Program-made: the position numbers and the translations under genes | DNA from: Anisus vortex | Taxonomy: Eukaryota > Mollusca > Gastropoda > Planorbidae | Reading direction: 5' to 3' | NCBI GenBank assembly: GCA_949126835.1 | Contig: OX421500.1 | Location: 30,671,641-30,735,640, forward strand | Length of the DNA: 64,000 bases | The notes under the pieces: model-generated | The model's input: only the letters and a program-made list of their open reading frames with translations | The model's database searches: none | What the model was told of the DNA's origin: nothing | Shown here: piece after piece, positions 12,858 through 63,831 of the stretch | Position numbering within the stretch: position 1 is the stretch's first letter | How the letters are laid out: every line of letters starts with the position of its first letter

Positions 12858-13010
12858 ATGTTCGTGTTCAAGAGACTCGTGTGGACGAATTCCCAGATTG
12901 GAGAACTCTATCCATCACACAGAGTCTTTCTCCCGGAAATACTTACAGATTTAGAGTCCAAGCAAGCAATGATCAGGTCGGCCCAGGAGATGTGAGTGGT
13001 GGACCATATA
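12858..13010 (+). CDS. Cont: gene A exon 1 in window: second half of FN3-1
   Basis: Acceptor TTTAG ends at 12857 and donor GTAAGA starts at 13011. The frame enters in phase 1 and leaves in phase 1. It encodes the late strands of an FN3 domain, with SPGNTYRFRVQASND (E-F strands) and GPGDVSGGPYS. The domain needs an upstream exon that I could not find. Confidence 0.88.
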
Positions 13011-16000: not shown

Positions 16001-19000
16001 CCAATGATAATGAAAATTCTTTATTCAAAATATTAAACGTAACTTTCAAGTAATTAGTTTAATAAGTGCACTTAAATTTTTTTTATTTTTGGAGGAAAAA
16101 TCTAAATCTTTACTCTTAGCCATTTAAGATTTGTAATTTCCGGCAACAAATCGAAGTGAAGTCAGTGAAGAAAACGCGACTAGGAAAAATGAATAGTGCC
16201 ACGTGTTTTGAATTTTTGTCCGGTTCTTATTTTTAACAAAATGGTTAAATATAGATTTAGTGCGTCGTGTTTTTTTTTTCTTCTATTGCGTCACTTCCAT
16301 ATGAGGCTTTTAGAAATCTCGTTCCTTCGAGAAAAACTTCTTCAGTTGGTCTTTTAACCCTTGCCGTACCGACCTACTTCTATCTATGCTGCCTTCAGTT
16401 CCGCTATATACGCGCCCGGGACTGTAAGGGTTAAGTTATGGGTGTAAAGTGTTAGCGATAAAATGTATTTGCTACTAGCTTACTGGTGTGAAGACACAAC
16501 AAAACACTCTTACATTAACATCAACATATACACCAGACTAAGAGTCCTACTGTACTCGGATATACTCATTTCTTAAGAACCTAGATATTAACTCTGACGT
16601 AGTTAAAAAAGCGGCTAAGTCTTAGAATGGCTCAATGGAAAGTGGTTTCACGGACTCGTCTTGTTTTAGACACACACACAGCAAAAATGTACCTATGTAG
16701 CATAATCATTCAAACTTTTATGTTACTACCTAAGAAGCAGAATTGTTTCGTAAACTATATAATATTAGTAAATCAAATCGTTAGTACCTAGCATTTGCCT
16801 TGTATATTGTTTTTCCTTCTGTTTTTTAATTGTGTGTTTCATAAAACGTTTTGTCTATATCAAGCCTTCTTTATTTTTGACACAATATTTCTCTAATGTG
16901 TAAGCTTCGCTTCACTTTCAAGCAATCAAATTCATTTAGGTCTTCAGTTTGACATACAGTCTTACTACTTCCGGTTTTGAGACAACCTTTTCATCTCTTA
17001 CCACTTCACTATCAGTACTGACCTCAAATCCTGTAATGACGTCATTTCCTTAATTATTTCCAGGTCAACTATTGGTTGGAAAACACCAAGTGCCTGGGCA
17101 CCAACGAGCTGGACGGCATGTCCAGCGATTTCTACGGCGACGTGTCCAGCGGCCTCCTCTTGGGGCTTGACTTCTCCGGAGACTACTGCGTCAACATCCA
17201 GTTCTTGAACAACGCCGGGATGGGCCCCAAAACTGACAACTACTACCTCGGAACGAAAGATGCGCGTAAGACTTCTTTGTTTATCTCCGTATTCTCTATA
17301 CGTTAAAATAGGCTATTTATTCTTGTCTTGTTCTTAAGTTATTGTATGCCTTTATTAAAGCTTTTTTAGAATGATTTAGACATTTCAAGTCTCATACCTT
17401 GTATATCTTCTTTAGAAAAAACAACATATTTTAGGGGTTTTACAGTACTGATTTTGTTTGATTACAAATCGACAAGTCTTAATTAGGCGTGACCTTTTGA
17501 ACTGGGGTGATCGTGAACTTTCCGGTTCTATTTTTAAATGTTTAATTATTTTAGGCATTTCCGTTAACAAAAAAGCATGCTTTTGCTGGTTATTGACAGT
17601 TGATTTCAACCTCGACGGCTAGTTCTAGTCTTTTAGAATTATACAAAGTATACAATATTTGTTATGAGGAATCCGTTTTTAACATCAAAAGTGAGTAGAC
17701 GAAAATTAATACTTAAGTGTTAGTCGCATGTAGCTTGTTTATAAAATAAATTAGTCAAGAGTTGCGTTTTCTTGGTTATTGAAAAACAAAATGCGTAAAT
17801 TCATAAAAACAAATAACAAAAATTCTTTTGCATTAAGCAATAAGTTTGATATTATAAAAAGGTGATTATTCACTTCTGACTTTCACAATACATCGTTTTC
17901 TTTTGTAAACATGTTTTGGAAATGAAAGAAATTTTAATCCCCAAAAAATGTTCGTACAACCAGTAACCCAGCACACAGACATGTTTCGAATAAAATGATC
18001 GAATTCGACCGGAAATATTTTTTTTCTTGTGAACTTTTATGCATGCATACACGTTAAGACTTGTCAATTATGTGTAAACTCTTTGTTCCACTGTATCTGT
18101 TTCTTTTTTCAACGCATACTTTTTAAGATTAAATTTCAATTCTATTACGTTACATTTGTACCACCTTATAAATATAGTTGATGGTTCTTTCGTAATATCT
18201 GCATTGTTATCATATTGTCCATTTAGTCCTATTATTTTAAAGCTAAGATTTGTTTCAAGATTACTAATATGTTACAACTATTTTTTAAATCGCCTTTGAT
18301 TGGATATACGCTGTAATGTTTCTGGTATAAATTATCTATATGTAATTTTTATCATATGTTATACTTTCACAGTTATGTCCCTTTTTGGGGTTTTATATCC
18401 CCCAGTTTTTTTCCTCAGTATGTCACAGTTATTTCCCTTCTTTGTGTTCTAGCTCCCAGTTTGTTTCCTGAGTCTGTCACAGTTATGTCACATGGGAATG
18501 ACAGTGTCCGGCTGTTGTGGCGAGGGATCTCAACACTTTTTAAGGAAGAACCACTCACTGGTTATAAGGTACTTGTTAGATTACAATGTCGCAAAGCTTT
18601 GATTGACGCATTACGATCAGCTCTAGTCCATGCCCACTTTTCTCTACCAGGCCTTCTGGTGGGACATCAGAGAAGACATAAGATCAGCCAAATATGCGAC
18701 GTTTGACAAAGTAACGACGGGAGTCATCCGCGGCATACAGCGAGACGTTGTCTACACACTACGCGTCCTTGGTTACAGCAATGGCGGGGATGGGAAGAAA
18801 AGCAATGCGGTGTATTTTACTTTAGGTATGCAATGATTTCATATACAACTTACGCATGACAAAATGTAGCTCTTTTATAGACCACGATACGCAATATGAT
18901 TATGTGGCCACTACAATCCCCCAGTCCTTAAAACAAAACTTGCTTTGGGTTTGACTGTTCTTAGATGGACTATCGATAGCCCTTCTCAAGAGTGTGTTCA

Positions 19001-27830: not shown

Positions 27831-27833
27831 ATA

Positions 27834-29072: not shown

Positions 29073-29080
29073 GTACTTAA

Positions 29081-32330: not shown

Positions 32331-32333
32331 AAA

Positions 32334-35352: not shown

Positions 35353-35461
35353 TTATGGATAAGATTTGGTTTAAAGGGATTGTTGTAGATAATATTGTAA
35401 ATAGTGTATTATATTGAGATATTAACAAATGTTACATTTTTCACAGATTTTGATTTGGGTA

Positions 35462-42274: not shown

Positions 42275-42310
<36 letters not shown>

Positions 42311-42311
42311 T

Positions 42312-42345
<34 letters not shown>

Positions 42346-43885: not shown

Positions 43886-43918
<33 letters not shown>

Positions 43919-46687: not shown

Positions 46688-46726
<39 letters not shown>

Positions 46727-49700
46727 GGTTAGAGAGATAGACAGAAAAACGGAGCGATACAGAGCGAAATAGATAGATAGAGAGAAACAGAGATAACTAG
46801 AGAGAGATAGTGAGAAAGAGAGAGAAACAGAGATAACTAGAGAGAGATAGTGAGAAAGAGAGAGAAACAGAGATAACTAGAGAGAGATAGTGAGAAAGAG
46901 AGAGAAACAGAGATAACTAGAGAGAGATAGTGAGAAAGAGAGAGAAACAGAGATAACTAGAGAGAGATAGTGAGAAAGAGAGAGAAACAGAGATAACTAG
47001 AGAGAGATAGTGAGAAAGAGAGAGAAACAGAGATAACTAGAGAGAGATAGTGAGAAAGAGAGAGAAACAGAGATAACTAGAGAGAGATAGTGAGAAAGAG
47101 AGAGAAACAGAGATAACTAGAGAGAGATAGTGAGAAAGAGAGAGAAACAGAGATAACTAGAGAGAGATAGTGAGAAAGAGAGAGAAACAGAGATAACTAG
47201 AGAGAGATAGTGAGAAAGAGAGAGAAACAGAGATAACTAGAGAGAGATAGTGAGAAAGAGAGAGAAACAGAGATAACTAGAGAGAGATAGTGAGAAAGAG
47301 AGAGAAACAGAGATAACTAGAGAGAGATAGTGAGAAAGAGAGAGAAACAGAGATAACTAGAGAGAGATAGTGAGAAAGAGAGAGAAACAGAGATAACTAG
47401 AGAGAGATAGTGAGAAAGAGAGAGAGACAGAGAGAACTAGAGAGAGATAGTAAGAATGAGAGAGATGGAGAGAGAAAGAGAGACAAGGAGAAAGATAAAA
47501 AGAGAGATGGAGAGCTAGAGAGAGATATAGAGAGACAGAGATACAGACAGAGATAGATATATATAGAGAGAGATAGAAAGAGAGAGATGGTGAGATAAAC
47601 AGAGAGAGATGAAGAGAGAGAGAGAGAGAGAGATTTAGATAGACAGAGAGGAATAGAGGGAGATAGCTAAATATAACCTATGGATTTTAGAACTTTATAT
47701 GAATTTTTGCAAATTACAATTAAAAATGATAAATTAAATCATAAAATTAGTTTTTGTTTAAAGAGCTTCAGAATTTAATGATGTTTTAATAAACAGAAAA
47801 CTTGCGTAGACCATGAAAAAAAAACTGTTACGTAACAAAATAGAGACATAGGACTAAAACGCTCATACAGTACTCCTTGCCGCTGCTATGTAAAAAAATT
47901 GAACCCTTCTTATCTAACGCAAATGTTAATATATAATACAAGCTACATTGCCCGGGGAAAATAAAACAGGTCTGTATAAGCTAGAGATAAAAATTGTATA
48001 AACTACAATGAACAGATAGTTCTAAATGTAATAATTAATAAAAATATATTATTTTTTACTGAAAACTTTTATGAAAATAATTTAAAACACGTATTGTAAT
48101 CGGGTAAAAAAATAGGTAAGTCTTTTTATTTAACGAAAATCTAAATTGCCCGGAGTTGCTTGTAGATTTACAATCTTTTTTTAAAGTAATAATTATTGAA
48201 ATGTGAAAAATTGTAGAAAAAAGGTACAGACTAACTGAAGAATCGAGTTAACCGGGTCGCCCGAATGGCAGTGTGGTTCGTTATCCTATTAGCTAGCGAA
48301 GACACATGTCCGATGTGAAATCGAAAAAAAGTATAATATGAGACAATAAGAGCACGTGTCTGTAAATGAACTAATATGATTGGTTCCACACACACGTAGT
48401 CAACTTTATATATATATAGATATTCTAGTTTTAATATATTTTTACAGCTTACGGATCAAACTCATCCAATCCAACTGCCTGGAAGGTGGGGCCCAACATC
48501 ACTTACATCTCCAAGGATACCGTTTTCTTTGAGACCCGTGGTCAGACAACTGACGTTCAACTGGACTGCGAGGCATCAGGAAATCCCAATCCTGAATTCA
48601 AATGGTTTCGGAGATCTTTAAACAGGTAATTTCAAATCAAAGGAATAATCCTAGTTGAAATAAGGTTGTTAAGCGAATATATATATAAATATATCATCAT
48701 CAACATATATAATTGCCGTGAGTTTGTTTGTTTGTTTATATATATATATATATGTTTGTTCGCTATAGGCACCTAAGCCGTTTGACTAATCGGTACAAAA
48801 ATTAAATGTATAGATCGGAAACGTCATCCAAAAGAAAAATTTATTTTATGACTTATAATCATGATTGAATTAATTTTATAAATCAAAAAAAGTATATCCA
48901 GCTATACAAATAAATATAACCGTAATAGCAAATGGCCGTTTCCGTTCATTTACTATATTGAACGCGAGTTTCACTTTGTTGAACGCGAGGGTCTTTTCGG
49001 GTTTTCCCAATTCTGCTGTTGTTTTTTTAATGTGGCGAGACCTTTTTTAAAAGTTACGCACCGCAATTTGGCTTGGAGAGTTTGAATGGTGTAGGCTACT
49101 TTAAAAAAAATACTATCGTATGACGTAATGTCTATAAATTATTTCTTTTTTCATTATTGATGTTTGCATTATCTTTTAAGTAAAAGTAACCAAATGTTAA
49201 AAACAAGTTAGGCCTATAAATGATTACTTTCAAATACCGGGTACCATAAGCTTGGCAACAACAAGATAAAATAAAAACTAAATACCGAAAGAAACATGAT
49301 CAAGACTGTTTTATTGATACAATAAGCAAGAACAAAAATTAAATACCGAAAAAATGTTTCTCAATTTAGTTTTTATTGCATTGAAATATTATTTTCTATT
49401 TTTTTTATATTATTATTTACCTTTTTGATTGTTTTGTATTTATGTTATTTTTTCTTTCAGATAGTATATTACTGTTCATTTAATATTATTAATACAAGTC
49501 AAGTCAACACAACTGTTCGCTACATTTTAAAATTGAATTTAAAAGTCTCTTAAAAAAACAGGACAAGCCTTTCGGCTCTTGTGTCCAGGGCGTAACGCTT
49601 AGGATTGAGCAATCTCTGTCCAGGCTCCAGCCACCCAACGACACGCCGAAGGCGTGGCGTGTCGTGTAACGGGGAAGGTTTCCGCAGCTCAGCGATCGTT

Positions 49701-51594
49701 CACAGTGGTGGCTCGCCAGTATACCTGCACTGTCAACCGGTAGCACAAATCCTATACTATAGGTACATGCATTCAGGCATCGGGTAGTTCTCGAGACGGG
49801 ATTGCAGCGTCCATTGCTTCCCCCCCCCCCCCCCGAGACCATTGGCCTCTCGGCAGTGTAAATGGCATCGGACCAGTTGCGGGGGCTGCGCCCCATGCGT
49901 TCGCCTGCCAGTGTATTCTTAATGGGTTATATCGGCGGTTTAAACACTACGCCAGTCCTTGAGGCCACAATTCCTATCCATATGCAAGGGTCAGGTCGAC
50001 CAGAAACAAATAAAAATAACAAAAACTAAATACCGAAAGAAACATTCTCAACACTGTTTTATTAATACAATTTTTAAAAGTTACGCACCGCAATTTGGCT
50101 TGGAGAGTTTCAATGGTTTACTTTAAACAAAATACTAGCGTATGACGTAATGTCTATGAAATTATTTCTTTTTTCATTATTGATGTTTGCATTATCCTTT
50201 TAAGTAAAAGTAACCAAATGTTTTAATTATTTAATGGATTTACGTCGCTATTGAGAATATCCTTTAATAGGCGACTGTATACACTCTATAAATTAAATGA
50301 TACGACTTATAAAAAAACAAGTTAGGCCTATAAATGATTACTTTCAAATACCGGGTACCATAAGCTTGGCAGCAACAAGATAAAATAAAAACTAAATACC
50401 GAAAGAAACATTCTCAATACTGTTTTATTGATAAAATAAGCAAGAACAAAAATTAAATACCGAAAAAAATCTTTCTCACTTTAGTTTTTATTGCATTGAA
50501 ATATTATTTTCTATTTTTTTTATATTATTTACCTTTTTGATTGTTTTGTATTTATGTTATTTTTTCTTTCAGATAGTATATTATTGTTAATTTAATATTA
50601 TTAATAACAAGTCAAGTCAACACAACTGTTCGCTACATTTTAATATCGAATTAAAAAGTCTCTTTAAAAAACCCGGACTAGCCTTTCGGCTCTTGTGTCC
50701 AGGGCTTAACGCTTAGGATTGAGAAATCTCTGTCCGGGCTCCAGCCACCCAAACGACACGCCGAAGGCGTGGCGTGCCGTGTAACGGGGAAGGTTTCCGC
50801 AGCCCAGCGATCGTTCAATGCGGTTCCCCTAAGTATCATTATCGTGGTGGCTCGCCAGTATACCTGCACTGTCACCCGGTAGCACAAATCCTATACTATA
50901 GGTACATGCATTCAGGCATCGAGTGGTTCTCGAGACGGAATTGCAGCGTCCATTGCTTCCTCCCCCCGAGACCAGTGGCCTCTCGGCAGTGTAATGGACC
51001 TCGGACCCGCTGCGGTGCCTCATGCGTTCGCCCGCCAGTGTATTCTTAATGGGAATGTTTCGGCGGTTTACGCACTACGCCAGTCCTTGAGGCCACAATT
51101 CTTATGCATATGCCAGGGTCAGGTCGACCAGAAACAAATAAAAATAACAAAAACTAAATACCGAAAGAAACAATCTCAACACAGTTTTATTAATACATTA
51201 AGCAAGAACAAAAATTAAATACTGAAAAAAATCGTTCTCACTTTAGTTTTTATTGTATTGAAATATTATTTTCTACGCTTTTTTTTATTATTTACCTTTT
51301 TATTGTTTGGTATTGTGTTTTTTTTCTTTTAGATAGTATATTATTGTTAATTTAATAGGCTATTTTTAATAACAAGTCAAGTCAACACAACTGATCGCAA
51401 CGTTTTAATACCAGACGCTTGACTGTTACAATTATTATGCATATGCCAGGGTCAGAAACAATGAAAAAGAACAAAAACTAAATACCTAAAAGAAACGTTC
51501 ATTGTATTTATTGTAATAGTCTCTTTTCTTTCTCTCTTAACAAAACATATTTTAGTCGTTCGTTTCTCCGTCATTTTGACGGGCATAACCACTA

Positions 51595-51680
<86 letters not shown>

Positions 51681-54600
51681 TACGGCTAAAGCCGAAGTTC
51701 GGCCACTTCGGACATTTCGCACTTGGCCAATGTCCGATGTGCTGGAAATTGCCAGTTCATACGATACTTTGGCCGGTCACTTCCCGAAGTGGCTGGAAAT
51801 CAATGGCTAATGTTCGATGTGCTGATGCAAGACTGTTCGGTAGGCGGCACAGCTGTTGGTTCCGGTGTGATGGCGGCTTGCATTTGGTAGCAAGGACAGT
51901 GAAACGCTGTGACGATAATTTTCTGCTCGTCTGCTGCTATTCAGAGAAAGTCCTGCCGATGTGACTGGTTGTTATTCTGACCGCGATAGAGATTGATAAT
52001 TTACTCTAATAAGCTAATTTGACTGATTTGAAAAATAATAATCAATATAGGCCAATATAGTGATGAAAATACTATTCCACATAAGTGAGATGTTTGCAAA
52101 TGGCGGGAAACAAAAATTAAGAGCGCATTTAGGACATTGCTGATTTAACGTGATTCAGATTTCAGCAACCATAGCTTTAACAAAATATCGGTTGGCTCAA
52201 ACTTAAAACAGGACAATATCCATTGCGCCATTTCAGAGCTCAAAATTTCGTGGGGAAATTGTAATGTATTACTAAAACCGTAAGGTTCCGCGGAACGCCA
52301 TGAATTACTGATGTGGCACCATGTCAGCTTGCGCCGCTTTATTGTTGCCATTATGGTTTCTTGTGGGGCTCCGCAATTAATGATATTTTGTCACAGACAT
52401 ACTCATTAGTCCTGTCTTCTAGGTAGGAAATTCGAAGGATTTTTCTCATGCATTTATTTTCGAATGCCTGCAATTTGTTTTTGGTAGCTGCTAGCAGTGA
52501 CCAGGTTCAACTCAGTAAACAAGAAGTACATCAAGCAAACAATATATATTATATGTTTTGTATTCACAGAGGTGTGCTGGAATGGATAAGTCCACAACTT
52601 AACCCCAGATTTGCCTTGACCTACGGAAGACTGACTATTCGAAACGTAAGTGGTTTTCCTGTTATCAAAACAGCATTGATTAAGCCTAGCCTTGGACAAA
52701 GTCTTTAGATCTTGGCCCAATTATTGGACGGGTGCAGACGATATAGGCCGCTTGACAGTGCAAATAGACTTGGCAAATAACTTGGGCCTTAATAGAAGTC
52801 GCATAGAAGATTATTTTTTTTTACTGTGGTGCCAGGATTTTAAATGACTTATTCCATGACTAAGCGTTTTAGTGGCAACACAATCATTCTCATACATAGT
52901 ATTAGGCTAGCCTATCTGTTTTGCATAGATCTCTGTAAAATATTTGTATAACCTTTTGTTTTATGAATTAAGGTTCTGCACTTTATTTTGTGAATTTCTT
53001 TGCAATAACTATGATGTCTATAATAATACATATAATAATCTATAATACAATATAATATGCAATAAAATACACTATAACACACAGTGGCGTATTTAGGCAT
53101 GTTCCATTGGAACAGGGGCCCCCACAGAAAAGGGGCCCCCACACATCCCAAAAATAAATGTTTGAGTGACATCCCCATATTTCGTTGAAAATGTAAAATA
53201 ATTTTTAATGTATTCCCGTACAATTTAAAGCGCTCCAGTTCAACCAAGCTACGTGCAACAGAAAATGTATGATTTTACAGAATGTAATATGAATTAACGG
53301 CCCTTTTCTGAGGTCGGCCCTATGTGGAGACCACGAGGGACCCCACATAAATTTGGGAACAGAACCCCCACATAAATTTGGGAACAGGGCCCCCCACAAC
53401 CCTAAATACGGCCCTGATAACACAATATAATATACAATATAATATACCATGGTAGCCTTCGATCGTAAAGGTGGGGCTCCTATGCATTAGGACAGGGGTC
53501 GGAAACCTACGACACGCGTGCCAGACTTGGCATGCAGAGCAAATTTCAATGGCACGCGGAAGACCCTAAGAAGACTTTTCAAGTCTTTTCTACAAGTATA
53601 AAGCATGATGACTTCAGTATGTTGGCACGCTGAGTAAATTAAGAAATACTACTTTGGCACACTAAGAATGTCTTGTTTGAGTGTATAAATACTGAGTGAT
53701 TGACTAGCAGAAAGACCTATAGAAGGATTGTAGAATGTAGAGAACCAACGTTAGTTGTTACGTAGGCCAGGGGATTTTTACGTTCTTACTTTTACATAAA
53801 GTAGAGCCACGCCTATAGGTGCACGGTGGTCGAGCGATAGCGCATTCGACTGGCGTACTGAAGGTCCAGGGTTAGAATCTTGGTAAAGGCTAGGATTTTT
53901 TTCCCGGGACTCGAGGGCGTCCCTGAGTCCACCTAGCTCTGATGGGTAACTGACATTAGTTGGGGGTAAAGTAACGGTCAAACATCCCCCTAGTATGCTT
54001 CACCGGCCCTTTGATCAATTTGGTCCGACGGGTACTTTACTTTATAGCAACGCCTGTAGAAATAAAATTCCAGAATGACGGGTAACAACAAACTTTGAAT
54101 ATGCCTTTTAGAGTAAACACAATTTTAAGGGAATGGGTGAGTAGCATCCCCTTCCTACACCTCTATGGACACATAGGCCTATACATAATTTAAAGCAGAC
54201 TTGCATTGAACACAGTTATGATATTATTGCTATAGTTTTTTTTTTTATGGCTGACTCCACCTTACTGTCGATAACGATTGGTGAATATATTCTAAATGAC
54301 AGCCAGATCCTGTGACTGATTCAAGTACCTACACCTGTGTGGCCACTAACAAAGTGGGGACAGTGTGGTCCAATCCTGTTGAAGTGGGCTTTGGATGTAA
54401 GTAATCAATGAAGCCTCTATCTTATAAGGATATGTTGTCATCTACTATACATTCATTAATAAGCTAAATACCACAAAGTTGACCGGAGGAAATTAAATTT
54501 ACATGTACCCTGTAAGCTCCTCGCTTCTGGAAGTGCCCCGCTTCTATCTGAAGACCGTTGGCCTTGAGCCTTCTCAATATCCGGTCCGAAAGTGTGGAAT

Positions 54601-57600
54601 CTACTTTCCATTCAACTCAGGCCAACAGGCTCCATTGATACCTTCTAAAAGAACTTAAAAACTTATTATTTCAATATTTATCTTAGTTAACATGCTTTGA
54701 GCCCTACTGTCTTACCTTTATGTTAGATCGGTTATTGTTTTGTTTTAATTGTTTGATTTGTTCTATGTTTGTAATGTTTTGAATCATCATTTAGCTTTGT
54801 ATCTCTTGGCCTATAGCTTGTATCCGTGTTCTTAGTTGTTTTGTTTAATGCGCTCTGAGCTTGCATTATGTTTGTTGGTAGCGCTATACACATGTCATTA
54901 TAATTATTATTATTAAGCTACAGATAAAAATTTCATAAACAACGAAGAACAGAAATTAATATTTACTGACAACATTTAGGAAAGTAGATCTAATTTAAAA
55001 CAAATATTGTACAAAATGGATTTTTTTTAATGCAGAAAAAGAAAGGGAAAGCTATCAGTGTGGAGTCGAAACCAGGTCGCCCGCATGTCAGTCGGATACG
55101 CTTACCACTCATCTAGAGAGCATACCTGCCAGAAGCGCGATCGCAAAAGTAAATTATGAGACAATAAAGTCACGTGTCTTTAAATTAACCAATGGGGATC
55201 GGAATCCACACACACAGTTTACTATACATAATATAGAGATATTTGAATATAAAAGTTGCATGTGGGCTCTTTCATAGACCTTTTGTAGATCTCATTAAGC
55301 ATAAGTTTAACTTTTTTTTCATTATTTTGAAAATGTATATTATGCTATAACAAAGTTTTGAGTTGTCGGCTTACTACCGAGTGGGATTTTTCAAAAAATG
55401 AAAGTCGCTGTGAAAAAGGTCTAGTCACAAACGGACCAAGGCCTTAAAACAATTGCCTCTGGTTTGGTGGCGAAAGTCCAGCTTGAGCCCCTACAACACA
55501 TCAGAGCGGTAAACAAGGTCACCACTATGTACAAGATCATGAGCCGCCATGTAGAAATGGCAACACAGCCAGGTCGCATCCAACAGGTGTCCCGCTCTAC
55601 CCGAGGTAATCAGCTCAAACTCCATGTACCATACGCACGCACCGACGTTTACAAATATTCCTTTTTTTACGTCCGCCATTATTAGACTGTAGAACTCACT
55701 GGACCAAGCCTCCATCACTGGCTTTTAAATCTTCACTGAAGGGTTTGGGCTAAATGCCTACAATGAGACTCCGTCATTTGTTTGTAGTTCTTGTTTGTTT
55801 GTTAAAAATGTTTATATGTCGTTAAATTAAATTGTGGACTTTTTCCTCGGGCCTAACGGGGTCTCCACAATAATATGAAGAGGAAGAAAACCTCAGCATA
55901 GTTTCAATGACAATTTCCATGTAGACATTACCATAAAAACAAAAAAACTTTCAAGCAAAGTATAACATTGCAAACCGTTATCAAACGAATGTTATGGTAA
56001 ACTGGAACTCTGGGATATGTCCCTCGACAACCGAATAATTACTAGGAGCAGATTTTCTCATTTGTGTATGTCATGTTTGTTAGAAATGCATGAAATTACT
56101 TTTATTTGTTTTCGTTTTTCGCCATGTTTCCTCCACAGATATAAGTGAGTTTTCTAACGTGAAAACAAATTTCATAGACGCCGTTCTGTACATGGGAATT
56201 GAGATAGGATGCGACTTACCTGCACACAACACAGGTATGTTTGAAAAAGTAGGTCTATATTAGTGGATACACCTGCACACATAACAGGTATGTTTGAAAA
56301 AGTAGGTCTATATTAGTGGACACACCTGTACACAACACAGGTATGTTTGGAAAAGTAGGTCTATATTAGTGGACACACCTGTACACAACACAGGTATGTT
56401 TGCAAGGGGGCAGTCTATATATTTATATATATATTATATATATTATTGGACACACCTGCGCTCAACACAGGTAAGTTTGGAAGGGGCGGTCTATATACGT
56501 TTACGGGACCCCACAAGTGTGAGAACTAGAAGGCGATCGATTGTAGTTTAAACAAGATCTGCTAAGCATTTCAAAAAGCTTTTTCTTTAAATTCTTATTC
56601 AAATGCGTTTTGTTGTAAATGTCCTTTGTATTCAATAACCCATCAAATAATTATCTGTGATCTGTTTCATAAACAATACAATTTTGTACTGAAATGTGTC
56701 GTTATCGTAAACTCCTTAGCTATGTCTGACGAGAGAACAATAGATAAATATATAATAGATTCTCTTTACAGTTTTCTTTATTTGAAAACATGTCTTTAAA
56801 TGCAATTATTTTTAAATTTATATTTTTTAAAGAAGTCTCATAAATTCATATTTTTTTCTGTATTATCCTGAACTTTATGAACTTTTCAGTGATCTAATAT
56901 AGCTAAGATCGCATAAACGATTGATAAGGAGAATTATATACAGAAGAATTGGAAAACTCACGTGACCAGCTTTATTTCGATTTGGTTCTATCGTTATTGT
57001 ATTAACAATTTTCCGTTCTATAATATCTTTTTAAATTACATTGTATACTCCATAATGTTTTAAAAATTCATTACGCAAGACTAACATGATTGTACTATGT
57101 CTGTATAGAGTTTGTATAAAGTTTGTATAGAGTTCTAAAACAGCTGTTTGTACATTTTGGTGTCTAGAGTTGCATTACGCTTGGTACAAATCTGACATGA
57201 ACTTTATCAGGACTGACCTGAATCCGCAGTACTTCCTGTCCAGAAACGGAAAGCTCTACATCTCTGAAGTCCAGTCTGCTGACCAGTGAGTTTGTGTATG
57301 TTATTTAAGTAACATTTCTAAGCAGTGTCCTAATTATTAATGTGGTCAATGGTTAGACGGGGTGGCCTGGGCAAGCAAATAAGTATCAATCGGGAACTAC
57401 CGTATATAACTATAATGCTAGAAGTATACATTTTGAGCTCGAATACAAAAGAAAAACAAGAGAATTGTAAAGAGAGCTAGTGCTGGTAACTCCAATCTAC
57501 ACTGACGCCTTGAGGTTCACAAATCATAGAATTTCCCAAGCTATTGCTAGATGCTTTGATTTGTTTTTATTGGGTAACGCTTTAAATACTTTTGACATTC

Positions 57601-60600
57601 TACGAATTTGAATAGAATCGAATGAAAAGTTTATCTAAGCATCGATATTAAAATTTAGCAGAGGATCTAACCCTTGACACTTAAGAGTGGCGTTAATCCT
57701 CGACCCCACTGACCAGAAATAAAAATCAGCATTCCTTAATTCCGCCTAAAAGTCCCGGTGTAATTCATAACTCTGTTTGCTTAGAAGACAAAAAAACATG
57801 TCATGGCACATTGATTTCATGTGACATTACTGACATCATTCACAGGGGTGAATATTTCTGCATGATTCTCATGATACCCCGCAGTGGTCAAGTTCTCACA
57901 GAGTCGCAGGCTCCGTCCAGAACTTCGCTGGGAATAGACCTACGGGTCATCGGTGGAAGTAAGTATGTACGGATCCCAAATGTTTAAATATATACATGTA
58001 CTCGTGATACATACATAGTAATAGGTAAAGTACAATATTATATATAGACATAGCGGAATGTGTATATAGATAGATTGTTAGTTAATAAGATAGATCGATC
58101 GATCGATCGATCGATAGATAGATAGATAGATAGATAGAGAGATTGATAGAGAGATAGATAGAGAGATAGATAGACATATAATTATAGATAGATAGACAGA
58201 TAAATAGACAAATGGATAAACATATAATTTAGATAGATAGATAGATAGTTAGATAGATAGACATATAAATAAAGATAGATAGACATATAGATAGACATAT
58301 AAATATAGATAGATAGATAATAGATAGATAGACATATAAATATAGATAGATAGATAGATAGACATATAAATATAGATAGATAGATACTAGATAGATAGAC
58401 ATAAATATAGATTGATAGATAGATAGACATATAAATATAGATAGATAGATAATAGATAGATAGACATATAAATATAGATTGACGGATAGATAGATATAAT
58501 TTCTCTGATTAGCCTATGACGAAGTCTATGTACATACATATTATTATCGTGATCAACAGCTGCACATAATTACGGCCCAGAAATCATGGACAAGTTCCCA
58601 CAATTCTACCCGGAAGTCCCGATGATTGGCGACCTCATTGAGCTGGAGTGCTTTGCCTATGGAAGGTCGGTGTATACCGCGCTGTCAGACATCGCCATAA
58701 CATTACAGATTGTGTGTCTCTTTGTATTCTATAGATTATCAAAACGAAGCACAGGTAAAAAAAAAATGTTGGCTAAGATTAAGATTAAGAAAAGCGTTTA
58801 TCCAAACATATAGCCGACCAATACACTGTATTGACGTTGCAGCACCGCAGTGGGATAGCTATTTTATGTCTCGAGTTCCAATCCAGGTTATAATCCAAGG
58901 TGGGTTTTTTTCACTTCATGGGTCTGGGAGGTGTCATTGGGTTTATTCAGCGTTGAGGTGTGGGAGGCGTCAACTTAGCACTGCATGCCGTCACGTCAAG
59001 TTGGCCGCACCAACATTTTCATCCCCAACAAAAAAATCATCAAAGATATTGACTGATGGTTGCATTACATTTTTAAACCGTACTGTCGCTTGGTAGTGTG
59101 TGAAAATACCAAATTATAAACTTTGTCATCTAGACACCAAGGATTGTAAGGCGGGTATTGTCCTGGCCACCAAGGTTTGGGTGGCCTCAGGGACCGTGCA
59201 ATAATCCTCGGAGGCGTTACGGGGGACACTAAACAGACCGACATTGCATGTAAGAGTATGTTTTTATTTTTTAATCAACTTACTTGATAATTGTATCCCC
59301 ATAACGCATTTTTATGATTGCTTTCTAAGAACTGAATGCGGACGTTCGGGCATGGAATAGGTGGCTTAAATAAACCAGGAAAACCAATATCTTCCTTTAA
59401 AGCTCTTAAACTAATCAAAATGCAAGACTAGAATCAAAACACAGATAAGCATAAGTAAAGTACTTTTCGGACCAAACTGATCAAAGGGCTGGTGACGCAG
59501 CGTTCACCGGTTTCTACGTGTGGATGTGTGGCCAGCACAATGCCCAGCCGCCTTTACTTTACCCCAACGTGTCAGGTATCCATCAGAGTTGGGTAGACTC
59601 AGGGTCACCTCCAGATAAGCGTAGGACGTAGATAATCTTCTATAATATAGTAGTTGCGTCTGTAACATACATGATAAGATAAGTATTTCCATTTTTTAAT
59701 GATTTTTCTTTGCGGCCTTTTGTCTTAGAATGCCGTTGTCCTATTCCTGGGTTAGAGACGACGGACCTCTACACCCTGAAGCTTACTACAGGGAATTCAA
59801 CAGGGTGTTGGTCCTTCCTAAAGCCAGGCTTCAGGACACTGGTTCCTACACTTGCATCGTCAGGGGAAACAAAAACTCGGCCAACAAAACCGTCCATCTC
59901 AATTTAAAAGGTATGTTGTTATTGGAAATGTGGAATTTAACAGATAATAATAATAAAGCAATGTGGTTAACAAAATGAATTTTAATACATTGACTTGAAA
60001 CTCACTGACTTTCAAAACATTGGTTGTAACACATTGATTTTTAACACATTGCTTTGTAATACATAGACTTTAAACGCATTGACTGAAAACATAATAATAT
60101 GGTCTTTTAACACACTAAATAAAACATATTGTCTGTATACTTTTACTTATTGACTTTTAACAAAATTACTTTAAGAGCATAACGATTGTTATCCATAATT
60201 CATTAAATCTAAGACATGAAATGAAAGTAAAAGATTGATGCACAAGCTACAATATTTATCTCAATCATTTTATAGTAGGCCTAAATTAGAAAACTGTTCC
60301 CTCCTTTACTGTTATGGGATAACGCGTTCTTAAATTCACCCACAAAATTGAGAAAATGTTGAGAATATGAGTACATTTTAAACTCAATGCTGTGTCTGTC
60401 ATTATAAGTCAATGTTTACATGCTATCAACCTTTGCTAGACTTGCTGCGGTTTAAAGAATAACTTTAAATAGGCCCACGACAAATGTGTTATGAATACAA
60501 ATAATCCTGCTTTGTCTCTTTCTTTGTTCATCTGAATATGAAAACATTATTCTGGAGTTAGGTGAAAACATATGACTATTGAAATGGACAGTTATAATCC

Positions 60601-63600
60601 TCAATGGGATGGAGGTTACTTTCTGTTTGTCTACTAGTGTATCACCTGTATCTACTTTAGTTGACCGATGGTTGTGGTTGTAAAAATCGTGTTCTATAAA
60701 ATAAATAAAAAATCCTTTGTTTATTTGTATTTGTAGCTCGGCCCTATTTCCCTTACCCTATGCAAAACCAACATCTGGACGCCGGGATCACATTCACCTG
60801 GACCTGTGGGGCTATCGGCGTGCCACTGCCTACTTACACCTGGTACAGGAACGGTGTTGAGCTGACCTCTGACCTAGGCGATGGCGTCAGAGTAAGCAAC
60901 TTTACATTTTTCAAAAATAACAAACGAGTGGCCACAGAAACTGGTGAACGCTGCTTCACTGGATCTATGGGTCCGACAGGATACTTTACTTTTTTTTTTA
61001 GCTCCAAAGTATTTTATAAGTATTCTTATTGAATGTTGTTTTCTTTTAATCGGGCCAGAAACCAAACATTTAGAATTCACAATTATATTTATCATCTCAC
61101 CTAGGTTGGGCTTACTGAAGTATAGTCTTTGTTATGGCAACACAATCTACTCGACAGTAACGCAATGAAATATAGCGAAATATAGCTTGCTTTTAAAGCA
61201 ATAGGAAATGAATAAAAACTTTTAAATATTAGAATTAAACAGTGATACTGAAATAAAAGTAAATTTGTACACTATATCTTATAAGTTTACAGACGTTCCT
61301 TCCAGATAGAAGATTATTTCGTCCACTAGGACCAAAACACCTGCAGGGCGACAGGGATCCGTTGGTGGCAGGGATAGAACCCGCGACCTGTCAGTTGGTT
61401 TTTGGAGGTCAGTCCGGTGAACTAACCGCTGGACCAGCCGGGCTTCATATCGAAGCCAAGTGATTATGTTTACAAATAGTGTACAATTGTACGGACTAAA
61501 AAAAATAGTTTCTATGTTTCCAGTTTAAAAAAAATACAGCTAGAATATATCATAAAGTAAAAATAATTCGGAGATGTAGTATTTTTTTTCTCACAAAAGA
61601 TGTTTTCTTAACAAAATCTATAATGTATTAAATCTTTTTGATGCCGATACTACTTTACTTAGCTTTTTAAAATTAATCTTTGAAACTGTTCAGATAAACA
61701 AAATAAAGTAGGCTATATAATTGTTAATACAATACATGAGAGGTCGGCAACCTATGGCACGCGTGCCACAAACTTGTCACGCAGAGCGCTTTTGAATGGC
61801 ACGAGGAAGATGCCCCAAAAGCCTACCTTACTTCCGTGTTCTTGGGCAAGCCTTACTCCCATGTGCTTACTTTCAACTGTTTCCCTAGGTTCACCGAAAC
61901 ACCTTGACCATTGAAAAGGTCACAGTCGGGCGACACGAGGGCGTCTACCAATGCGAGGCTGTGAACGCTTATGGCAAGGCGCGGTCAGGGGGCCAGCTGA
62001 GAGTTTTGTGTAAGTATTTGAGTTTAAAAATGAGCGTGATTGTATTGTTTCTCCTGCTTCTCGAGTAGTAATTCTAATATGACAATGGTTAACTGAACAG
62101 TGGCGTAGCTAGGGGAGGGGGGTCCAAATTCGAAAGTCCCCCTCGGGCCCCTGCTTTAGGGGGCCCCCAAAGGAGTGTCCGATTTGTTTTTCTCATGTCA
62201 TAATGTCGAATGTCAAGATCCAGGGGCCCCTAAAGAGGCCAAGCCCCCCGGCCCTTGAATCCCTAGCTACGGCACTGTAACTGAACAAGTCAGGATAACC
62301 AACAGGTGTAGAACACCACTTCTGTATGCATGGACTTCAACGTCTGGTAATGTGTAAATCACCGATACGCTTAGATTAAGTGAGACAGCCCCTGTTGTGC
62401 TTCCGATGATCAGTGCACTGCTGAGAGGCTTCGAGACTCACTGGGTAAGAAGCTATGAGCGCAACAGCCCGTCTCAAACACGCCCTGGTGCCTGGATGTC
62501 CGGGCCTATAGTCTGGGATTTGTGCTACCGGGCGACAGTGCAGGTATATGAGCGAGCCTTATCGGCGTGCTCTGGTTGTCTAGTCTCGGACAGGATCTTG
62601 ATGTGCACCCCCCACCCATTGACCCACCCCTTTGCATCATAACGCCCTGGACAAAAGAGCCGGAATGCTTCTCTAAAGAGCCGGAATGCTTCTCTAAAGA
62701 GCCGGAATGCTTCTCTGGTATATTTTTAAGACAGGTATAAATAGGTGTAGAACCTAATATTCTTGTCCATAAAAAACGTATATAATAAGATGTATATAAA
62801 TATTTTGTTGTCAAATGGTATTATTAGAGGCATCATCTTATCAATCTTATAAAGTCAATTACAGTTCTGTTTTATTATTTTTATGTTTTTAGATTTTGCC
62901 CCCACATTTGTTACCAGTGCCGTAGAGGCCTCCAAAACCGCAGCAGAAGGCGGGAACATCACCATAGCCTGCAGCCCGCACGCAGCACCTCGAGCCACCA
63001 TCACGTGGTTAAGGAACGGGGCCGAGGTCGGGCACGTACTCCCTAACGGTGCCCTCGAGCTGGCGTTTGTGAAGAGATCTGACGCGGGGACGTACACATG
63101 TGTGGCCACCAACGAGCTTGGGGAGGCGACATCTTCCTGTAGACTTTACGTGGAAGGTATGGAGCATGCGCAGTGGGTTAATTGCTATTAATAATAGAAG
63201 TTCTCGTCTGGCCATAGAAATGTGTGCTTTTAAAATGTACCAAGAACAGAAGCACTGAACGAAACCAGCTAAATATATATTATTGTATAGTTAATGCGTT
63301 TTATTTTAAAGCATGACACCAGTAAATCCATAACAAGCTGATATAACATAGTACTATGGGTTTAAACGGAAATCAAGGAAACTGCAAAAATAAAAATAAA
63401 TAGTATTTCCAATACCTGTCATGTGATTATTTTCTCATCAAATATTTACTTGGTTTCTGTCTCACCACATACACACGCAAACTCACACACATACACTCAA
63501 ACTCACACATAATCAAACTATCAAACTCGTTGAATCACTCAGTCATGTATATTTCAATACATTCCAAAGTCTTATTTATAAATATACAATTTTTGGAAGT

Positions 63601-63831
63601 AGTCATGTGAGTATAAACTTTAACCTTAGTGCATTTAAAACTTGTTTCTTAGAAAATACCGTATTTGTTGAGAAGCCCATTGACGTGTCTGTGGAAGAAA
63701 ACCAGACGGCAGTGATTCCCTGCAAGGTGTCGTTTGTTCCTGGTAAAATGGACATCGTTTACTCTTGGAGGTTTTACTCTCACACAATCGACTTTTCAAG
63801 TCAAAGTGACGACAGGGCTCATTACACTATG
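41593..63831 (+). CDS. Cont: contactin-like gene B, 5' part (signal, CTLD, Ig1-Ig5, start of Ig6)
   Basis: Sixteen exons join in frame: 41593-41695, 42383-42563, 44944-45116, 46533-46646, 48448-48625, 52570-52645, 54303-54396, 56139-56234, 57168-57285, 57846-57958, 58560-58665, 59729-59910, 60737-60891, 61889-62009, 62893-63156, 63653-63831. Order: signal peptide, C-type lectin-like domain, Ig1 to Ig5, first part of Ig6. Fly Contactin has CTLD + six Ig + four FN3 + GPI, so the remaining Ig6 and FN3 exons should lie past the right edge. It is on the same strand as gene A, 21 kb downstream, making a tandem pair. Ig1 opens with GPNITYISKDTVFFETR and Ig5 with FAPTFVTSAV, both contactin-like. No promoter or 5' UTR exon could be assigned; the ATG at 41593 is chosen because it starts a clear signal peptide. 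Confidence 0.88.
41806..42358. repeat. GATA/GACA tetranucleotide array next to exon B2
   Basis: 0.55 kb of TAGA/GACA units. It ends about 25 bp before the acceptor of the first lectin exon. The long YLSI-repeat frames on its - strand are by-products. Confidence 0.93.
42383..42563 (+). CDS. Cont: gene B exon 2: CTLD first half
   Basis: Acceptor TTTTCAG ends at 42382; donor GTTTGT at 42564; phase 1 to 2. It encodes DCPPSWFQNSGFCYNFVF, then YQEAILHCQQDMSALVSVK and EHDFIQTWL. The two early cysteines mark a long-form C-type lectin fold; the third is the first conserved core cysteine. A 0.55-kb GATA array ends about 25 bp before the acceptor. Confidence 0.9.
42914..43192 (-). repeat. tRNA-derived SINE family S1, long copy
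   Basis: On the - strand the head reads CCGGTAGCACGTTCAATTAG and CCTGGGTTCGAATCCTGG (a good B-box), then the shared S1 body. It lies in gene B intron 2. Confidence 0.8.
43193..44636. other. gene B intron 2 remainder
   Basis: AT-rich, with CA runs at about 43887-43930 and 44030-44060. A stretch at 44566-44636 (GAGACATTTGACAGTATAACG) recurs at 46455, beside the duplicated exon-4 edge. Confidence 0.6.
44637..44841 (+). mobile_element. hAT-type MITE, deletion derivative
   Basis: Left part GGTTGGCAACCTTTTG...ATTCAGCGTGCCAACAG and right part GCGTGCCAATGAAAATCGC...CCGATCCCTG match the two ends of the 30450 element with the middle missing. No target duplication recognised. Confidence 0.75.
44944..45116 (+). 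CDS. Cont: gene B exon 3: CTLD second part
   Basis: Acceptor CTGCAG ends at 44943; donor GTAGGT at 45117; phase 2 to 1. It encodes RDWLTSGLNERTGHLVWNSD, which is the W-x-GL...W-DG core, and ends ENIVIVYKYY. No EPN or QPD calcium/sugar motif is visible. The last 22 nt plus the donor are the seed of the minisatellite that follows. Confidence 0.88.
45095..45825 (+). repeat. 36-bp minisatellite seeded by exon B3 donor edge
   Basis: About 20 units of GTTATAGTATAAAGATACTA + TGATAGGTTTTACAAT. The first unit is the last 22 nt of exon 3 plus the real donor GTAGGT. Most later units read GATAGG where the donor GT should be. Confidence 0.9.
46379..46532 (+). repeat. duplicated acceptor and start of exon B4 (pseudo-exon edge)
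   Basis: TGTTTTCTCCACTGTCCAG plus the first ~45 nt of exon 4 occur at 46379 and again, as the real site, at 46514. The upstream copy would hit a TAG after seven codons (GCC AGT GAC CAA TAC CAA TAG), so it cannot be used productively. Confidence 0.88.
46533..46646 (+). CDS. Cont: gene B exon 4: CTLD end
   Basis: Acceptor GTCCAG ends at 46532; donor GTAAGT at 46647; phase 1 to 1. It encodes ATDQYLWAWSRL and KPAPFICKID, the closing C-type lectin strand with the last core cysteine, then a basic/acidic linker RETWRFDQQRRDF. No WND motif precedes the last cysteine, and no C2/C3 cysteine pair is present. Confidence 0.87.
46684..47660. repeat. AG-rich satellite with 40-bp near-perfect core
   Basis: An AG run, then from 46781 to 47440 about 16 copies of a 40-bp unit (AGAGAGATAGTGAGAAAGAG and AGAGAAACAGAGATAACTAG), nearly all identical, then decayed AG-rich DNA. 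It starts about 38 bp after the exon 4 donor. Confidence 0.93.
47934..48425 (-). repeat. SINE-like repeat family S3, copy
   Basis: Parallels 40905-41392 block by block, ending at a TATATATATA run about 25 bp before the exon B5 acceptor. Confidence 0.7.
48448..48625 (+). CDS. Cont: gene B exon 5: Ig1 first half
   Basis: Acceptor TTACAG ends at 48447; donor GTAATT at 48626; phase 1 to 2. It encodes VGPNITYISKDTVFFETRG, VQLDCEASGNPNPEFKWFRR: the Ig B-strand cysteine and C-strand tryptophan at normal spacing. Confidence 0.9.
48626..49042. other. start of gene B intron 5, unassigned
   Basis: TA and GTTT short repeats near 48670-48750, then ATTGAACGCGAG twice near 48958-48989. No element boundaries seen. 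Confidence 0.5.
49043..51450. repeat. large tandem duplication in gene B intron 5
   Basis: 49043-50070 and 50071-51150 are two copies of a roughly 1.05-kb unit (GTTACGCACCGCAATTTGGC start), with a third partial copy to about 51450. Copy 2 has an extra segment near 50221-50315. Each unit holds a GC-rich core (49560-49920; 50680-51075). Part of that core (GATTTGTGCTACCGG) is also at 62517 in the other orientation. Confidence 0.85.
51594..51681. repeat. TA then TG dinucleotide array
   Basis: About 30 TA units followed by a dozen TG units. Confidence 0.95.
51682..52569. other. gene B intron 5 end, unassigned
   Basis: Moderately GC-balanced DNA with repeated GGCCAATGTCCGATGTGCTG-type phrases (51724, 51803). 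It may be a mobile element fragment; no ends recognised. Confidence 0.4.
52570..52645 (+). CDS. Cont: gene B exon 6: Ig1 middle
   Basis: Acceptor TTCACAG ends at 52569; donor GTAAGT at 52646; phase 2 to 0. It encodes GVLEWISPQLNPRFALTYGR and LTIRN (E strand, L-x-I). Only 76 bp. It is separated from exon 5 by 3.9 kb of duplicated repeat DNA. Confidence 0.88.
53082..53416 (+). mobile_element. hAT-type MITE, CAGTGGCGTA end, 8-bp duplication
   Basis: 335 bp. Left CAGTGGCGTATTTAGG, right CCTAAATACGGCCCTG. ATAACACA is duplicated at 53074-53081 and 53417-53424. The interior is rich in GGGGCCCC runs. Confidence 0.88.
53493..53672 (-). mobile_element. hAT-type MITE, right end decayed
   Basis: CAGGGGTCGGAAACCTACGA and CACGCGTGCCAGACTTGGC match the 24053 copy in the same orientation; GTTGGCACGCTGAGTAAATT is the other arm. 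The final terminal repeat is lost. Confidence 0.72.
53818..54045 (+). repeat. tRNA-derived SINE family S1, + strand copy
   Basis: Head GGTGGTCGAGCGATAGCGC (A-box region) and GGTCCAGGGTTAGAATC (B-box region), then the S1 body with CCACCTAGCTCTGATGGG, ending at TACTTTACTTTA. Confidence 0.8.
54303..54396 (+). CDS. Cont: gene B exon 7: Ig1 end
   Basis: Acceptor TGACAG ends at 54302; donor GTAAGT at 54397; phase 0 to 1. It encodes PDPVTDSSTYTCVATNKVGT and SNPVEVGFG: D-x-x-x-Y-x-C of the Ig F strand, then the G strand. Confidence 0.9.
54551..54905 (+). repeat. LINE 3' end fragment with ATT tail
   Basis: A decayed frame reads like the C-terminus of a LINE reverse-transcriptase protein (S-x-x-x-x-VWN-x-LPF-x-L-R...S-x-DTFK), then a non-coding tail with TTGGTAGCGCTATACA and an ATT run. 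The same tail is at 11876 and inverted at 25826. Confidence 0.6.
54913..55245 (-). repeat. SINE-like repeat family S3, diverged copy
   Basis: Shares GAGTCGAAACCAGGTCGCCC, TTATGAGACAATAAAGTCAC and GTGTCTTTAAATTAACCAAT with the copies at 40905 and 47934. Confidence 0.62.
55441..55790 (+). pseudogene. decayed LINE ORF2 C-terminus
   Basis: One frame reads VTTMYKIMSRHVEM and, further on, ARTDVYKYSFFYVRHY, then stop codons inside what would be the W-N-x-L motif. Many CR1/L2-like LINE proteins end with LYKI...RTD-x-YK-x-SFFPRTI-x-x-WN. A broken fragment, not a gene. Confidence 0.65.
56139..56234 (+). CDS. Cont: gene B exon 8: Ig2 first part
   Basis: Acceptor TCCACAG ends at 56138; donor GTATGT at 56235; phase 1 to 1. 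It encodes YISEFSNVKTNFIDAVLYMG and IEIGCDLPAHNT, with the B-strand cysteine. The 3' edge (CCTGCACACAACACAG plus donor) is repeated several times into the intron. Confidence 0.88.
56219..56480 (+). repeat. 53-bp tandem repeat multiplying the exon B8 donor
   Basis: CAG|GTATGT occurs at 56235, 56288, 56341 and 56394 (spacing exactly 53), and CAG|GTAAGT at 56471. Each unit repeats the exon's last 16 nt. Use of a later donor would reach an in-frame TAG nine codons after the normal exon end. Confidence 0.92.
57168..57285 (+). CDS. Cont: gene B exon 9: Ig2 middle
   Basis: Acceptor TCTAG ends at 57167; donor GTGAGT at 57286; phase 1 to 2. It encodes ELHYAWYKSDMNFIRTD, PQYFLSRNGKLYISEVQ and SAD. Contactin Ig2 has the same W-x-K...R-x-x-x-x...G-x-L-x-I pattern. 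Confidence 0.9.
57846..57958 (+). CDS. Cont: gene B exon 10: Ig2 end
   Basis: Acceptor TTCACAG ends at 57845; donor GTAAGT at 57959; phase 2 to 1. It encodes QGEYFCMILMIPRSGQ (F-strand cysteine) and SRTSLGIDLRVIGG. Confidence 0.9.
58060..58497. repeat. GATA/ATAG tetranucleotide array near exon B11
   Basis: GATC then GATA units with CATATAAATA interruptions, ending about 60 bp before the exon 11 acceptor. Confidence 0.92.
58560..58665 (+). CDS. Cont: gene B exon 11: Ig3 first half
   Basis: Acceptor CAACAG ends at 58559; donor GTCGGT at 58666; phase 1 to 2. It encodes YGPEIMDKFPQFYPEVP and GDLIELECFAYGR (B-strand cysteine). A GATA-type array ends about 60 bp upstream. Confidence 0.88.
58790..59445. 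other. gene B intron 11, unassigned moderately GC-rich block
   Basis: 58835-59245 is less AT-rich than its surroundings and may be an old mobile element. It has no boundaries or product I can name. Confidence 0.4.
59446..59612 (-). repeat. SINE family S1, partial copy
   Basis: TTTTCGGACCAAACTGATC, GCAGCGTTCACCGG and CATCAGAGTTGGGTAGACTC match other S1 bodies; the head is missing. Confidence 0.72.
59729..59910 (+). CDS. Cont: gene B exon 12: Ig3 end
   Basis: Acceptor TCTTAG ends at 59728; donor GTATGT at 59911; phase 2 to 1. It encodes MPLSYSWVRDDGPLH, RVLVLPKARLQDTGSYTCIV and NKTVHLNLK: C-strand tryptophan, then D-T-G-x-Y-x-C. Confidence 0.91.
60737..60891 (+). CDS. Cont: gene B exon 13: Ig4 first half
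   Basis: Acceptor TTGTAG ends at 60736; donor GTAAGC at 60892; phase 1 to 0. It encodes ARPYFPYPMQNQHLDAG, FTWTCGAIGVPLPTYTWYRN and GVELTSD. A fragment of a SINE tail begins only about 45 bp after the donor. Confidence 0.9.
60936..60990 (+). repeat. SINE S1 tail fragment close to exon B13
   Basis: TGAACGCTGCTTCACTGG and GGGTCCGACAGGATACTTTA match the S1 3' end. It starts about 45 bp after the exon 13 donor. Confidence 0.55.
61270..61445 (-). repeat. tRNA-derived SINE family S2, copy 2
   Basis: On the - strand: GGCTGGTCCAGCGGTTAGTT (A-box) and CGGGTTCTATCCCTGCC (B-box), then ACGTCTGTAAACTTATAAG near the far end. The same family as 36437-36600. Confidence 0.8.
61741..61815 (-). mobile_element. 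hAT-type MITE fragment
   Basis: GGTCGGCAACCTATGGCACG, CACGCAGAGCGC and TGGCACGAGGAAGA match one arm of the 24053-type element; the other arm is absent. Confidence 0.65.
61889..62009 (+). CDS. Cont: gene B exon 14: Ig4 end
   Basis: Acceptor CCCTAG ends at 61888; donor GTAAGT at 62010; phase 0 to 1. It encodes VHRNTLTIEKVTVGRHEGVY, QCEAVNAYGKARSGG and QLRVL. The E-G-x-Y-x-C-x-A-x-N-x-x-G signature of a contactin/L1-type Ig is complete. Confidence 0.91.
62098..62277 (+). mobile_element. hAT-type MITE with 8-bp duplication
   Basis: 180 bp. CAGTGGCGTAGCTAGGGG at left and CCCTAGCTACGGCACTG at right. TAACTGAA is duplicated at 62090-62097 and 62278-62285. Confidence 0.9.
62400..62700. repeat. repeat shared with intron 5, plus a short tandem repeat
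   Basis: GATTTGTGCTACCGGGCGACAG and nearby bases occur inverted in the 49-51 kb duplication. At 62657-62720 AAAGAGCCGGAATGCTTCTCT is repeated three times (21-bp period). Confidence 0.7.
62893..63156 (+). CDS. Cont: gene B exon 15: complete Ig5
   Basis: Acceptor TTTTAG ends at 62892; donor GTATGG at 63157; phase 1 to 1. One exon carries the whole domain, unlike Ig1-Ig4, which are split. It encodes FAPTFVTSAVEASKTAAEGG, ITIACSPHAAPRATITWLRN, ALELAFVKRSDAGTYTCVAT and NELGEATSSCRLYVEG. Contactin Ig5 in other animals shows the same C-x-P-x-A-A-P core. Confidence 0.92.
63653..63831 (+). CDS. Cont: gene B exon 16: Ig6 first half
   Basis: Acceptor TTCTTAG ends at 63652; donor GTAAGT at 63832; phase 1 to 0. 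It encodes ENTVFVEKPIDVSVEENQTA, VIPCKVSFVPGKMDIVYSWR and FYSHTIDFSSQ. Contactin Ig6 likewise has a C-x(n)-D-x-x-Y/F-x-W core and an IDF segment. The rest of the gene is beyond the window. Confidence 0.89.

Follow-up and report, generated by a model that had tools for sequence, protein, structure and literature searches.

Mirage-type duplications across exon edges of two neighbouring contactin genes in the snail Anisus vortex

Tandem repeats that run across exon-intron boundaries were named "mirages" in the amphioxus gene Adh3 and then recognised in globin genes; their units measure 10 to 160 bp, they occur at both 5' and 3' boundaries, and RT-PCR results suggested regular splicing (PMC3087553). 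The amphioxus examples given there and in a study of PGBD5 comprise Adh3, the globin genes BflGb6 and BflGb9, PGBD5 itself and, as cited there, troponin C (PMC3087553, PMC3902484), and the mirages of lancelet PGBD5 are described as imperfect (PMC3902484). Many of the repeat units, though not all, retain the AG or GT of the splice site (PMC3087553, PMC3902484), and the idea that mirages might make new introns has already been proposed (PMC3087553). Two further systems bear on such structures: the Rogers model derives intron gain from the tandem duplication of proto-splice sites and draws on internal repeats in Drosophila and human (PMC2891723, PMC2812944), and at breaks with 3' overhangs the fill-in by CST and Pol alpha-primase yields small tandem duplications of tens of bp, according to work in which 43-bp overhangs were used (PMC8355091). 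We compare these systems with a 64-kb stretch of the Anisus vortex genome, the whole of which we call the window.

Gene models and four duplicated junctions

The window contains two neighbouring contactin genes on the same strand, the tail of one (A) and the head of a second (B). Gene A is represented by exons A1 to A9 (12858..20535, + strand), which encode its FN3 part (fn3 PF00041), carry the stop codon in A9 and were recognised by tblastn with gastropod contactins, while gene B is represented by exons B2 to B16 (42383..63831, + strand), which were likewise recognised by tblastn, encode Ig domains and run past the window end. The joined coding sequences of both genes are open. A database search with rough exon translations gave 17 proteins, the best seven of which are contactin-like and come from Candidula, Bulinus, Biomphalaria, Elysia and Physella, which we take to be heterobranch snails, as we do the host itself. 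Exons were modelled by tblastn with these 17 proteins (best five matches per query) and their edges then placed by reading frame and GT/AG, so that all junctions are predictions from protein homology; the 23 donors lie at GT and the 24 acceptors at AG in phase, though GT/AG was partly a criterion of placement and hence gives no independent confirmation. In this way we recovered 24 exons with 47 splice junctions, one exon short of the 25 counted in an earlier sequence-only reading of this DNA, as the first exon B1 was not found in the window by tblastn with the 17 proteins.

Bulinus has two contactin-like proteins with adjacent locus numbers (Btru_057496 and Btru_057498) on contigs of equal listed size, which fits an old contactin tandem pair. 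Exon B2 aligns by tblastn to the C-type-lectin-like start of two of the query proteins (P0002 and P0007), and a Pfam search of the joined B protein at E 0.001 gave no match to a lectin domain. Outside the contactin exons, we note an LTR-retrotransposon-like element (5227-9943, - strand) with a 1168-aa frame in which integrase domains (H2C2, rve) precede reverse transcriptase and RNase H, beside which a frame of 349 aa encodes a SCAN domain; we presume that this position of the integrase, together with the gypsy-type domains and the SCAN-like Gag, recalls Gmr1-like gypsy elements. Furthermore, there is a highly charged open frame of 490 aa (33880-35352, + strand) with no Pfam match at E 0.001 and, between the contactin genes, a 38-bp array (37148-37609) with a higher-order period of 152 bp (4 x 38; 96% matches).

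Direct repeats span 4 of the 47 junctions, splice site included, namely the acceptor of A7, the donor of B3, the acceptor of B4 and the donor of B8, where a crossing was defined as a direct repeat in the self-BLAST of the window (E <= 1e-3) with at least 5 bp on either side of the junction. These are exactly the junctions that the sequence-only reading had described as copied together with their splice sites, and self-BLAST recovered every one of them. The loci found by TRF alone give three crossings, the B4 duplication being absent from the TRF list. As repeats, all four are beyond chance, because lag scans of two 64-kb order-1 Markov surrogates peaked at 15, below the threshold of 18 that we applied. 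They are also local, as BLAST against 354 kb (the window plus 29 stretches, or 290 kb, of the same genome; nearer matches filtered) gave no match to the A7, B3, B8 or B4-duplication units more than 900 bp from the query. At A7, B3, B4 and B8 alike, the copy within the exon body encodes residues common to the relatives and is therefore ancestral, which means that the repeat grew out of the exon rather than the exon out of the repeat. As a description of these two predicted genes, it is thus true that duplication started from exon edges more than once.

Frequency of repeats at exon edges

We think it probable that these mirage-type structures are ordinary local duplications, some 36-60 bp in size, which came to lie across exon edges by happenstance in a snail genome rich in repeats, without any special attraction of the edge, and a moderate true excess at exon edges is possible. 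The sequence-only reading had suggested that four crossings exceed what random placement would give, and this holds under one null model but not under another. The underlying scan for tandem loci (lags 12-600, ungapped score at least 18) found 25 of them between 12858 and 63831, of which 19 are complex and 6 microsatellite-like. If the junctions are rotated across the array footprints, a coverage null that permits arrays over whole exons, there is no excess: under five definitions, 3-4 loci are crossed where 2.4-3.5 would be expected (P 0.23-0.61), and the count by junction is 3-4 against 3.9-6.2 (P 0.51-0.72). We prefer a constraint-aware null, in which loci are placed at random with an array overlap of at most one unit with an exon, because selection would remove arrays that cover whole exons. 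Its expectation here is about 1-2% crossings per edge, and the four crossings then represent a nominal 5- to 6-fold excess: over the whole span, 4 of 19 complex loci cross a junction where 0.64 would be expected (P 0.0033), and in the gene spans 4 of 12 do so where 0.81 would (P 0.0063). Once microsatellite-like loci are counted as well, the whole-span result is 4 of 25 against 0.87 (P 0.0073) and the gene-span test weakens to 4 of 17 against 1.18 (P 0.023). When threshold, lag and span are varied over 30 settings, the same null gives 2-4 crossings against 0.19-0.82 expected (P 0.0002-0.022), and leaving out B4 gives 3 against 0.59 and 0.73 (P 0.021 and 0.031). The detection bias that would arise from selection holding one copy is small, with a simulated gain of 1.07- to 1.30-fold. 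Under the preferred null the excess is arithmetically real, but it is post hoc, coming from one window chosen for it with n = 4; pure chance is an uncomfortable explanation of the four crossings.

The best surviving alternative is that exon edges are true mutational hot spots for tandem duplication, be it through transcription-linked breaks, R-loops or some property of the exon/intron step. We regard this as unlikely, and a link to R-loops specifically is speculation. It is favoured by the gene-span excess of complex loci, which holds over thresholds and lags, and by simple arrays that lie near junctions. The sequence-only reading had three of these arrays abut splice sites, which is apt for two and overstated for the third: a GATA array before B2 (41814..42359, + strand) ends 23 bp by the lag scan, or 40 bp by TRF (42342), before the acceptor of the exon at 42383, and an AG-rich array after B4 (46671..47666, + strand) starts 24 bp by the lag scan, or 28 bp by TRF (46675), past the donor of the exon that ends at 46646, but the GATA-type array before B11 (58066..58498, + strand) ends 61 bp ahead of the acceptor of the exon at 58560. 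Over the whole span, 2 of 6 microsatellite-like loci lie within 30 bp of a junction without crossing it (0.17 expected, P 0.009) and 3 of 6 within 70 bp (0.37 expected, P 0.004). Against hot spots, the case is post hoc and comes from one window with four crossings, the coverage null shows no excess, and of all loci over the whole span 2 of 25 lie within 30 bp of a junction without crossing it (0.69 expected, P 0.16), with complex loci at 0 of 19 (0.53 expected). Within 70 bp the overall count is 4 of 25 (1.56 expected, P 0.07).

A wider sample of the same assembly comprised 25 stretches (250 kb) of contig C1 plus four that extend one gene. Its 77 complex tandem loci in 230 kb of C1 (3.35 per 10 kb; 23 stretches, three of them adjacent) compare with 21 over the 64 kb of the window (3.28 per 10 kb), and the window is therefore ordinary in its repeat load. 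The sampled stretches L001-L004, which lie close to the end of C1 and are rich in GC or contain N, were left out. Three of these (L002, L003 and L004; C1, 100-310 kb) have a GC content of 62-64% and open frames that run for about 6 to 10 kb, perhaps as tandem repeats of coding length, and L001 is the C1 end itself and contains 2500 N. Coding score and inspection by eye recognised one gene in the sample, a THSD4-like gene (in stretch L020) whose five matched PDB sequences are all ADAMTS5 or ADAMTS13 and whose homologues are THSD4 and ADAMTS-like proteins. In tblastn it shows 11 exon-like segments with about 21 edges, spread over 11 kb (positions 23.7-34.7 kb once the stretches are joined), the first segment being weak (E about 0.1) and the edges partly approximate, and junction-crossing repeats were found at 0 of these approximately 21 edges. 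This zero counts against hot spots but weighs little because the span holds no complex tandem locus, its one tandem locus being microsatellite-like. Ten more coding-like ORFs, from 94 candidates in the sample, had no Pfam match at E 0.01.

That the exon edges of this snail gain tandem duplications several-fold more often than intron interiors, with decoy donors and acceptors arising continually and feeding intron-boundary change, strikes us as doubtful. Were exon edges genuine seeds, a mutational source of new splice sites and of boundary change could be measured beyond the lancelets and counted in any chromosome-level mollusc genome. Many recent intron gains have been proposed for hemocyanin genes of Tectipleura snails (PMC7931591), and more frequent duplication of exon edges could bear on these.

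Anatomy of the copies and their splice sites

Under the preferred reading of happenstance, a small duplication would first arise by slippage or end-joining repair, and the acceptor of B4 (exon 46533..46646, + strand) may preserve the outcome of such a repair. A 60-bp segment that crosses the acceptor at 46533 (46513..46572, + strand; self-BLAST) and comprises the polypyrimidine tract, the AG and the first 40 nt of the exon recurs 135 bp upstream with 90% identity (46378..46437, + strand), and the copied acceptor would start the exon at 46398. Between the two copies lies an insert of 75 bp (46438..46512, + strand), of which 46436-46510 matches 44544-44619 in intron 2 with 91% identity; the probable source is thus 1.9 kb upstream in the same gene (44544..44619, + strand). 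The divergence of the flanking copies from each other (90%) resembles that of the insert from the intron-2 segment (91%), which is consistent with a single event. The simplest reading of this arrangement would be a duplication with templated filler, as 60-bp copies flanking an intron-2-like 75 bp are what one would expect of a repair that copied filler, and it would make B4 a clear case of a splice acceptor doubled in this way. We also note a predicted cryptic acceptor inside the insert (46458) that would keep the frame if used, adding 25 residues without an early stop, and a short dispersed repeat of 75-77% identity directly downstream of the insert source (about 44624-44700) that also occurs at 24183-24245 and in a sampled stretch (L010:5051-5128).

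An insert with a second copy elsewhere and with flanking direct repeats could also be a transposon with a long target-site duplication. Target-site duplications of transposons are typically far shorter than 60 bp, though, and we find this origin of B4 improbable. No direct repeat was found around the intron-2 segment (44544-44619), BLAST gave no third copy of the insert in 354 kb with intron 2 as the sole further copy, and the dispersed repeat is separate from the source segment, beginning only past 44620.

Once a duplication spans an edge, happenstance requires only that splicing can stay with the original site, so that edge-crossing duplications would be tolerated and those inside exons purged. 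At all four junctions the exon-joined copy retains the coding sequence shared by the relatives and the other copy is intronic. How strong the copied sites look was scored with a small weight matrix trained on the 23 donors and 24 acceptors modelled in the window, the four duplicated junctions among them. The donor of B8 (exon 56139..56234, + strand) is crossed at 56234 by an array of 53-bp units (56218..56405, + strand; 3.5 copies, 94% identity; TRF and self-BLAST) that repeats the genuine donor CAG/GTATGT of 56235 at 56288, 56341 and 56394 with an equal score of 10.8. A diverged further copy of 75% identity (56440..56496, + strand) carries a fifth donor, CAG/GTAAGT, at 56471, 236 bp away, whose score of 12.2 exceeds that of the genuine one. 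The first three units also contain a weaker GT, AAA/GTAGGT (56249, 56302 and 56355; score 8.1). For the tail of B8, BLAST matched only (TA)-like sequence in 354 kb. Any of the four extra donors, or the weaker GT at 56249, would lead to an early stop if used, and so would the copied B4 acceptor, which scores the same as the genuine one (9.5); the original sites must therefore be preferred, if protein is made. Even as a product of chance, B8 packs five donors into 240 bp, none scoring below the genuine one, and so offers a natural experiment on spliceosome choice between almost identical donor sites.

The remaining two junctions have largely lost their copied sites. At A7 (exon 18453..18568, + strand), a duplication of 54-56 bp in 2.2 copies (18367..18489, + strand; self-BLAST, TRF period 54) crosses the acceptor at 18453 with 81% identity over 69 columns and a spacing of 56 bp in self-BLAST. 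The homologous AG of the upstream copy is lost, and a different AG at 18417-18418 would open A7 34 bp farther upstream with a score of 7.4 against 13.2 for the genuine acceptor. Near A7 there is also a predicted cryptic acceptor (18429) that would keep the frame and add 8 residues without an early stop; like the one in the B4 insert, it speaks against the preferred reading. At B3 (exon 44944..45116, + strand), the donor at 45116 is crossed by an array of 36-bp units (45094..45850, + strand; TRF 45094-45781) that tiling resolves into 21 units, of which the first is the exon end and the last two have at most 70% identity to the consensus. The donor-position GT survives in 1 of the 20 extra units and is absent from the other 19. 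The unit that keeps it is the second-last (45772-45814), which resembles the exon unit in this respect, and the interior units share AT at this position; possibly the ends of the array escape homogenisation. Selection against decoy donors in B3 was considered and dropped, as the interior units with their shared AT may descend from one altered unit.

Some edge duplications would then have expanded, B3 by its 20 extra units and B8 by about three plus the diverged one with all four copied donors intact, a pattern that is visible in the arrays and whose cause we infer. The suggestion that splice-site numbers change in this way holds at the level of sequence, where B8 has four extra strong donors (4/4 kept) and B4 one extra acceptor (1/1), with the homologous AG of A7 lost (0/1) and GT in 1/20 extra B3 units; the general idea had already been published under the name of mirages (PMC3087553).

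Alternatively, the extra copies might have been selected as regulatory poison splice sites that tune contactin output through premature stops. The four extra B8 donors, which score at least as well as the genuine one, and the equally scoring B4 acceptor all lead to stops as this would require, but 19 of 20 extra B3 units lack the donor-position GT, the homologous A7 AG is lost, and intact near-copies of the B8 donor are to be expected anyway among units of 94% identity, so that we hold such selection to be very improbable. Mis-joining of repeats at exon edges during assembly has next to no credibility, even though repeats are assembly-prone and a draft lancelet genome contained the BflGb6 mirage in an aberrant assembly (PMC3087553), given that the copies differ by 6-19% and so are not merely repeated reads and that C1 of the same assembly, which need not be the window's contig, measures 86.6 Mb.

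Comparison with known systems

The snail junctions can be set beside three described systems. With intron gain of the Rogers type they share duplicated sequence that carries splice signals; in the snail, however, the joined coding sequence is open with one copy and without an added exon or recognised new intron. The duplications formed by CST and Pol alpha-primase resemble A7 and B4 only in size and shape, and their mechanism comes from mouse cells with Cas9 nickase (PMC8355091).

The closest match is with the amphioxus mirages, and judged by their sequence anatomy the snail structures would be mirages too, three simple and one with an insert. Among the matches listed in a search of the open-licence literature, there is no report of earlier mollusc mirages, and we regard as new their occurrence in a mollusc, four in two adjacent genes and one with a copied insert. 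The likeness lies in the direct repeats of exon plus intron sequence across the predicted junctions of A7, B3, B4 and B8, in the tandem, minisatellite-like form that A7, B3 and B8 share but not B4, with its copies 75 bp apart, and in the retention of AG/GT by many but not all amphioxus units and likewise by the snail copies. What sets the snail apart from amphioxus is the mollusc host, the concentration of four cases in two adjacent paralogous genes, known here from the sequence of one assembly, and the 75-bp insert of B4.
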